64,000 nucleotides of DNA from positions 248,001-312,000 of the forward strand of contig NZ_JALIQP010000002.1 of assembly GCF_023566055.1 (NCBI RefSeq), in the 5' to 3' direction. Positions 29,024 to 30,401 of this stretch are shown here, one piece after another. A model generated the notes under the pieces. The model saw only the letters and a list, made by a program, of their open reading frames with translations, ran no database searches and was not told where the DNA came from. Positions within the stretch are counted from its first letter, which is position 1. Each line of letters starts with the position of its first letter. A program made the translations under genes and the position numbers. Source of the DNA: Halosolutus amylolyticus (lineage in GTDB: Archaea; Halobacteriota; Halobacteria; Halobacteriales; Natrialbaceae).

Positions 29024-29248
29024 ATGAGTCAGCACGTCACAGCGGAACCGGTCGACGACGTCCCGGCCGACTCCACCGTCTGCCACTACGACGAACTGGG
29101 CGAAGCGGCGAAAGAACTGTTCCCCGACCTCGTCGGCGAGAGCGGTCCTGACGACGATTTCGACGCCGTCGACGAAGACGCCGCCGACGGGTTGCAACGA
29201 TGCGATTTCGTCAAGTACACCGACTACTACGGAATCTCGGTCAACTGA
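29024..29248 (+). CDS. Small acidic protein, unknown function
   Basis: A 74-residue strongly acidic protein: MSQHVTAEPVDDVPADSTVCHYDELGEAAKELFPDLV at the start and GLQRCDFVKYTDYYGISVN at the end. The ending and the CHYDELGE motif look like a conserved haloarchaeal type of small protein, but I cannot name a family. The two cysteines are far apart. AT-rich sequence upstream (GGGGAAAATTGAATATC, 28978-28994) supplies a possible promoter. It precedes the terpene-synthase-like gene by 157 nt, and that gap holds its own strong AT-rich promoter, so they are probably separate transcripts. Confidence 0.75.
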   Translation: MSQHVTAEPVDDVPADSTVCHYDELGEAAKELFPDLVGESGPDDDFDAVDEDAADGLQRCDFVKYTDYYGISVN

Positions 29249-29376: not shown

Positions 29377-29385
29377 TTTAATAAT
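29377..29385 (+). promoter_or_regulatory. TATA-like box before 29406
   Basis: TTTAATAAT in a 60-bp very AT-rich block (29344-29400), ending 20 nt before the GTG at 29406. This is one of the AT-richest stretches of the window. Confidence 0.5.
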
Positions 29386-29405
29386 ATATTAGAGTAAAAT
29401 CATTC

Positions 29406-30401
29406 GTGGCGAGTAATCACCTCCAGTCCGAAACCACTGGACGAGACTCGATCGTCGCGGCCGTTCGTCGGCAGGAACTCCCCGAATCGATCGTCCCACT
29501 GCTCGATGCGTACGACGACGCGATCGGAAACCGGGATCCGTACCTCTGGCGCTGGCTCACGCACCTCTTTCCGAAGTTTACGCTCTCCTGCGTGGACGAC
29601 GACCACGCCGGGCGCGCTCAGGAGGCGAAACTCCTCTCGTCGCTGTTCGTCACCGTCGTCGACGACGTCGCCGAGAAACGCGGCGATCGGGCCACGTTCG
29701 AGGAGGCGAGCAAAGTTCCGTTCGACTACTGTCAGGCGGATCCCGATCGCCGCGGGGTCGACGACGAGACGATCCGATTCCTCCAGCGCGTCTGGGCGAC
29801 GTTTTCGGCGACGATCGAGGACAGTCCCCGTCTCGGAGCGTTCCGCGACGTCCTGAGGTTCGACCTGCAACAGGTCGTGCAGGCGATCGAGTACGCGAGG
29901 GTCGCCGACGCACACCCCGCGCTCGTCTCCGAACGCGATCTGTGGCGGTACGACGTTCACAACATGATGATCTTCGTCTACGCGGATCTCGACCTCGTGA
30001 ATGCGCCGTCGTTCGACGCCGGCGAACTCGGGGCGCTCCGGCAACTGGTCCGGCGAACCCAGCGGATGGCCCGGATCTGCAACTGGCTCGTGACCTGGAA
30101 GCGCGAACTCCACGAGGGCGATCTCGTCTCCGGGATCGTCGTCCGCGCGCTCGAGTCCGGCGTCGTCTCGCGAGATCGACTCGAGGCCGTTCGGGCGTCT
30201 CCGACGCCGGAGACCGTCGATCCGGTGATCGAGGCGATCGAGGGGAGCGACCTCGAGGCCCAGTTCCTCGCGGACTGGCAGGCGGAGTACGACGCCGCAG
30301 GTACCCTCGTCGGCGACCTCGACTCGGTCGACGGGAAGGCCTATCTCGAGGCCTTCGAGCGGATCCTGGTTTACCACGTCGAGAGCAGGGGCCTGCTGTG
30401 A
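29406..30401 (+). CDS. Class I terpene-synthase-like protein
   Basis: A 331-residue, all-helical protein starting at a GTG. The metal-binding signature of class I terpene synthases is complete: an Asp-rich motif VVDDVAEKRGD (DDxxE at residues 86-90), an NSE triad NWLVTWKRE (N226, T230, E234, i.e. NxxxTxxxE), and an arginine (R181, in LWRYDVHNMM) about 45 residues before the NSE motif, the position of the pyrophosphate sensor in bacterial terpene cyclases. The 140-residue spacing of the two metal motifs is also canonical. It is short of polyprenyl synthase hallmarks (no second DDxxD). The likely reaction is Mg-dependent ionisation and cyclisation of an isoprenyl diphosphate. The product is unknown, and the gene has no obvious pathway neighbours. 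Confidence 0.75.
   Translation: MASNHLQSETTGRDSIVAAVRRQELPESIVPLLDAYDDAIGNRDPYLWRWLTHLFPKFTLSCVDDDHAGRAQEAKLLSSLFVTVVDDVAEKRGDRATFEEASKVPFDYCQADPDRRGVDDETIRFLQRVWATFSATIEDSPRLGAFRDVLRFDLQQVVQAIEYARVADAHPALVSERDLWRYDVHNMMIFVYADLDLVNAPSFDAGELGALRQLVRRTQRMARICNWLVTWKRELHEGDLVSGIVVRALESGVVSRDRLEAVRASPTPETVDPVIEAIEGSDLEAQFLADWQAEYDAAGTLVGDLDSVDGKAYLEAFERILVYHVESRGLL

Follow-up and report, generated by a model that had tools for sequence, protein, structure and literature searches.

Here, we report a terpene synthase-like gene, present in one copy in the genome of the haloarchaeon Halosolutus amylolyticus and located in the 64,000 nucleotides of contig NZ_JALIQP010000002.1 that were analysed (the window), whose product is probably a non-canonical, Mg2+-dependent enzyme of the class I terpene synthase fold that ionises a prenyl diphosphate. 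The family occurs in about four in ten Natrialbaceae genomes and is kept into the methanogens, with an intact metal site and with the usual diphosphate-sensing residues missing. If active, it would mean that archaea make non-lipid terpenoids beyond rare gene transfers, and its recurrent association with sensor kinases and Bat-type regulators provides a direct route to asking when and why. To our knowledge, few if any archaeal terpene cyclases have been characterised. A Pfam match, conserved metal motifs and a confident fold count for the class I enzyme reading. The absence of the sensor Arg, of the Asp in the NSE motif, of the RY pair and of the Asn that follows the NSE motif counts against it, as do the lack of a confident terpene synthase match in sequence and profile searches of the PDB, a weak profile-profile comparison, TM scores of only about 0.5–0.6 and the lack of tailoring genes nearby.

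The gene and its mapped features are collected in Table 1. The original prediction had placed DDxxE at residues 86–90, NxxxTxxxE at 226–234 and an Arg at 181, with a motif spacing of 140, in an all-helical protein of 331 residues; these positions are right, the two motifs reading DDVAE and NWLVTWKRE, and both the ORF length and the AlphaFold model agree with that description.

Table 1. The terpene synthase-like gene and its features, in window coordinates.
Feature	Position	Strand	Remarks
Terpene synthase-like gene	29406..30401	+	331 aa, GTG start; Pfam PF19086; AlphaFold pLDDT 92.5, pTM 0.90
D86-D87-V-A-E90 codons, aspartate-rich metal motif, end of long helix 65–90	29661..29675	+	Sequence, model, family-wide conservation
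N226-W-L-V-T230-W-K-R233-E234 codons, NSE/DTE-type metal motif, helix 205–236	30081..30107	+	N, T/S, R and E conserved
G238-D239 codons	30117..30122	+	Correspond to the GD four and five residues past the NSE Glu in T-muurolol synthase
Arg181, proposed pyrophosphate sensor	29946..29948	+	Arg 39/91, Thr 21, Gln 9: not conserved
Arg43	29532..29534	+	Invariant: 91/91 relatives and 3/3 methanogen ones; R29 in alignment A4
AT-rich, TATA-like element directly upstream of the gene	29377..29391	+	Sequence; putative function

A search against terpene synthase profiles, proposed as a check with the original prediction, gave a match of the window protein to Pfam Terpene_syn_C_2 (PF19086) that lies exactly at the cutoff (E 4.5e-5, 23.7 bits, cutoff 23.7). 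All 52 members of alignment A1 match the same profile at E<=1, the best at 2.2e-8, and 32 of the 52 also match PF03936. A prenyl-diphosphate, squalene or phytoene synthase paralogue of the ordinary kind would have the same superfamily fold, but such an identity is highly improbable and is largely refuted by the profile searches: none of the 52 members matches PF00348 (prenyl synthase) or PF00494 (squalene/phytoene synthase) at E<=1, a second DDxxD is missing, and the source genome has its own such genes elsewhere, namely three of the prenyl-diphosphate synthase type, which could supply substrate, and two of the squalene/phytoene-synthase type. NCBIfam, PHROGs and a single-sequence search of the PDB returned no match for the window protein, and a profile search of the PDB returned weak matches alone, with manganese transport proteins on top and no confident terpene synthase among them. 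A profile-profile comparison against true synthases aligned the NSE motifs but was weak overall, which the shallowness of both alignments probably explains.

The AlphaFold model, built on A1, predicts the all-helical class I terpenoid synthase alpha bundle and includes a break in helix G (helices 176–181, 183–187 and 189–198, with breaks at 182 and 188). The structural check suggested at the outset thus came out in favour of the fold, with isoprenoid synthases as Foldseek matches of the window model (probability 1.0, E 3e-4 to 2.5e-3, TM about 0.5–0.6): farnesyl diphosphate synthases came first, and the elongation domain of fusicoccadiene synthase, pimarane-type and geosmin synthases were also matched. 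That farnesyl diphosphate synthases lead could suggest a prenyl-transferring or diphosphate-cleaving enzyme of the same fold, in which the prenyl group passes to water or another acceptor without cyclisation, an alternative that we consider unlikely but worth weighing. The metal motifs would suit any class I ionisation, and R43 stands 43 residues before DDxxE, a spacing that resembles the basic motif of prenyl synthases. Terpene cyclases can also serve as aromatic prenyltransferases (PMC7414894). However, the second metal motif is of the NSE type rather than DDxxD, prenyl-synthase family matches are absent among the 52 A1 members, and the model of a Methanosarcinaceae relative that is about 22% identical (pLDDT 87.5) matches cyclases first, namely hydropyrene, tolypothrichol, T-muurolol and 10-epi-cubebol synthases.

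Conservation was counted over 91 distinct full-length relatives, with three Methanosarcinaceae relatives counted apart. In the aspartate-rich motif, D86 is found in 89 of the 91 and D87 in all, while position 90 is Glu in 81 and Asp in 10; in the NSE-type motif, N226, R233 and E234 are each present in all 91, and position 230 is Thr in 89 and Ser in two. R43, R212 and R223 are likewise found in every one of the 91. Both metal motifs, together with R43 and K75, are kept in the three Methanosarcinaceae relatives, where R212 and R223 are not. The metal motifs are essentially invariant in haloarchaea and in Methanosarcinaceae. That the motifs arose by chance in an acidic haloarchaeal protein is a negligible prospect. 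DDxxD/E alone is indeed common (118 of 330 unrelated genes), and the pair, DDxx[DE] followed by Nxxx[ST]xxxE 100–180 residues on, appears in 0.24% of shuffles of the window protein, and two of the 330 unrelated haloarchaeal genes have it as well, for which reason the pair on its own is suggestive and not decisive; conservation across families and into the methanogens, together with the fold, refutes the chance explanation. For the metal motifs, conservation across the family settles the matter; for R181, it counts against the assignment.

The same comparison thus upheld one part of the original prediction, the near-invariant metal motifs, and not another, the assignment of R181 as pyrophosphate sensor. 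In terpene synthases, the sensor is usually found 46 residues ahead of the NSE triad, whose Asp partners it; an RY pair and, 8 or 9 residues past the triad, an Asn are further features (PMC8450962). R181 is not conserved, stands 45 residues before the motif, and would have Trp (W227) in place of its Asp partner; the class I signature, described at first as complete, is therefore incomplete, and R181 as sensor is ruled out by conservation and spacing. No Arg is found at the usual distance either, residue 180 being a Trp that is variable in the family. From the NSE consensus N-D-(L/I/V)-x-(S/T)-x2-(K/R)-E, the window protein has conserved N, L/I/V, T/S, R and E, with the second-position Asp replaced by Trp. 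Past the NSE motif, the family alignment has no conserved Arg-Tyr, and the expected Asn is absent, with Ser242/Gly243 here and S or A and G in the family. A parallel is offered by SmTS1, a sesterterpene synthase of Streptomyces mobaraensis in which the sensor Arg is likewise missing (Gly in its place), as is the NSE Asp (Gln), and which is nevertheless active on GFPP (PMC8450962); these losses therefore do not exclude activity. The likeness to SmTS1 concerns these motif residues; the aspartate-rich motif of SmTS1 is altered (PMC8450962), whereas that of the archaeal family is intact.

Compared with the bacterial class I synthases of PF19086 (such as T-muurolol, 10-epi-cubebol and hydropyrene synthases), the archaeal family has the same all-alpha fold, helix-G break and DDxx(D/E), as well as N-x-(L/I/V)-x-(S/T)-x2-(K/R)-E and the subsequent GD. 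It differs in having no sensor Arg, Trp for the NSE Asp, no RY pair and Ser/Ala for the post-motif Asn, and sequence identity is very low. In the NSE region of T-muurolol synthase, KE-x3-GD-x2-N stands against RE-x3-GD-x2-S here, with R233 and the GD matching.

The activity, substrate, product, phosphate-binding replacement and regulation that we infer would combine as follows. D86/D87/E90 and N226/T230/E234 would hold a Mg2+ cluster, which would bind a linear prenyl diphosphate and abstract its diphosphate; the resulting carbocation would then be quenched in the pocket to give a hydrocarbon or alcohol, probably cyclised. Other basic residues may replace the sensor-Arg/Asp and RY pairs, with R43, R212, R223 and R233 as candidates, and Arg43 in particular could be one of the basic residues at the phosphate site. 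For their membrane lipids, haloarchaea produce GGPP and in many cases GFPP too; from this and the SmTS1 parallel, our guess is a larger isoprenoid diphosphate, GGPP or C25 GFPP, as the probable substrate. PAS-type sensors would be linked to expression or activity in many relatives.

The family is far from confined to the source genome. A single-sequence scan of genome contigs found nothing, whereas an alignment-based scan did find relatives, and a protein search located the gene in 51 of 125 Natrialbaceae genomes, spread over 14 of 29 genera. In a Pfam search of the class, Terpene_syn_C_2 was present in 62 of 394 genomes, three other families included; among named genomes, 79 loci were found, almost all of them in Halobacteria, with one Methanohalobium MAG besides, and a phylum-wide profile search added three non-haloarchaeal families, Methanosarcinaceae among them. 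The gene had originally been described as isolated, which holds for its local neighbourhood and not overall, given its many relatives across Halobacteria and methanogens. A quick tree places the window protein in a supported Natrialbaceae clade, beside Salinadaptatus. Tandem duplicates occur in Natrialba chahannaoensis (L072) and in another genome (G043:C14:19415-21701).

Haloarchaeal terpene synthases of the bacterial type were also encountered, at L175 (G262), L176 and L177 (G047), scoring 136–170 bits and carrying an N-terminal extension. These conserve the sensor Arg, at an R336-N382 spacing of 46, which the archaeal family lacks; L175 holds two copies with a prenyl synthase gene alongside each. 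The bacterial-type synthases look acquired, whereas the present archaeal family is broad. Terpenoid biosynthesis in archaea is claimed in the title of a preprint by Samusevich et al. (bioRxiv 10.1101/2024.01.29.577750), as cited in PMC12797696, and this citation was all that was found of published work on archaeal terpene synthases; the preprint may include the present archaeal family, which would be less new if so. The sole archaeal reference given in a terpene synthase database of 2025 concerns a prenyl-chain synthase (PMC12797696).

In the window, neither a biosynthetic nor a sensor gene lies beside the terpene synthase-like gene, whose neighbours encode an RNA ligase, a metallo-beta-lactamase-fold protein, a Cys/Met metabolism enzyme and SBP56. 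A biosynthetic cluster in the window was rejected, and the annotation bears out the earlier remark that no biosynthetic neighbour was visible. A small ORF of 74 aa just upstream (29024–29248, + strand) has no Pfam match and was not found in related loci. The Natrialbaceae copies in general have no sensor or regulator linkage at the adjacent position, and a search beside them for a HalOD1 gene missed in annotation found none.

Elsewhere the linkage is pronounced, and it is a new finding. Outside Natrialbaceae, sensor or regulator domains were found in 44 of 110 directly adjacent genes, compared with about 3% of those at a distance of five genes or more. When relatives outside the window's clade were collapsed at 60% identity, 11 of 17 clusters had a directly adjacent sensor or regulator. 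In 5000 trials with the query moved to a random gene within its locus, the mean was 2.7 and 11 was not reached once; the neighbour profiles were built from these very neighbours, which somewhat favours detection, and the null used the same annotation. One cluster of Bat-type regulators (PAS, GAF, BAT, HTH_10) is represented in 29 loci, with all 29 members no more than three genes from the terpene synthase-like gene and in several orientations, and HalOD1 genes as well as a directly adjacent HisKA_4TM-type histidine kinase are found in further loci. The adjacent Bat-type regulators form a distinct group, scoring 867–1032 bits in leave-one-out comparison, whereas other genes from ten genomes reached 677 at most. 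An orthologue of this regulator elsewhere in the source genome was rejected, the best paralogue there, at 619 bits, falling within the paralogue range. The arrangement is reminiscent of the Bat regulator next to phytoene synthase in the bop regulon, and the source genome itself also has a Bat-like gene next to a gene of the squalene/phytoene synthase type (G000:C2 564735-566848); regulators that adjoin terpene synthase-like genes are a group of their own, apart from such Bat-type paralogues.

So strong a linkage in relatives, together with the loss of the sensor Arg and RY pair, could also fit a signalling protein in which the terpene synthase fold binds an isoprenoid diphosphate as ligand and which partners the adjacent sensors while catalysing little or nothing. 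We find this doubtful, since the whole metal triad is strictly conserved, beyond the needs of ligand binding, and the window's clade has no adjacent sensor gene. Because the linkage is absent in Natrialbaceae, a regulatory role of the window gene itself would be by analogy only. For the class I enzyme reading, a wider and more tentative extension, which we think possible but on the whole improbable, is an old archaeal class I terpene synthase lineage with its own way of holding the diphosphate, whose product acts in, or is switched by, PAS-type sensing, a sensor-terpene module reaching from Methanosarcinaceae to haloarchaea.

In seven Methanosarcinaceae loci, an orthologous PAS-PAS-HisKA_2 kinase is encoded directly upstream of the terpene synthase-like gene on the same strand, and the kinases in three of the seven are 66–69% identical. 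The Methanohalobium gene is flanked by PAS kinases, with a DUF92 gene intervening on one side. This DUF92 gene (L155:11160-12554, +) encodes an integral membrane protein and is divergent from the terpene synthase-like gene; DUF92 includes the plant phytyl-phosphate kinase. In a Halobellus clade (L125, L128, L134, L135 and L136), the terpene synthase-like gene instead adjoins genes of the type II/IV secretion ATPase type. The stretch from the Bat-type regulator to the terpene synthase-like gene carries, in L088, L096, L100, L101, L106, L120 and L126, a conserved element similar to TCAYGAATTCGTAC. This element is intergenic in the Halorubrum/Halobellus loci, occurs hardly anywhere else in them, and is a candidate site for the regulator.
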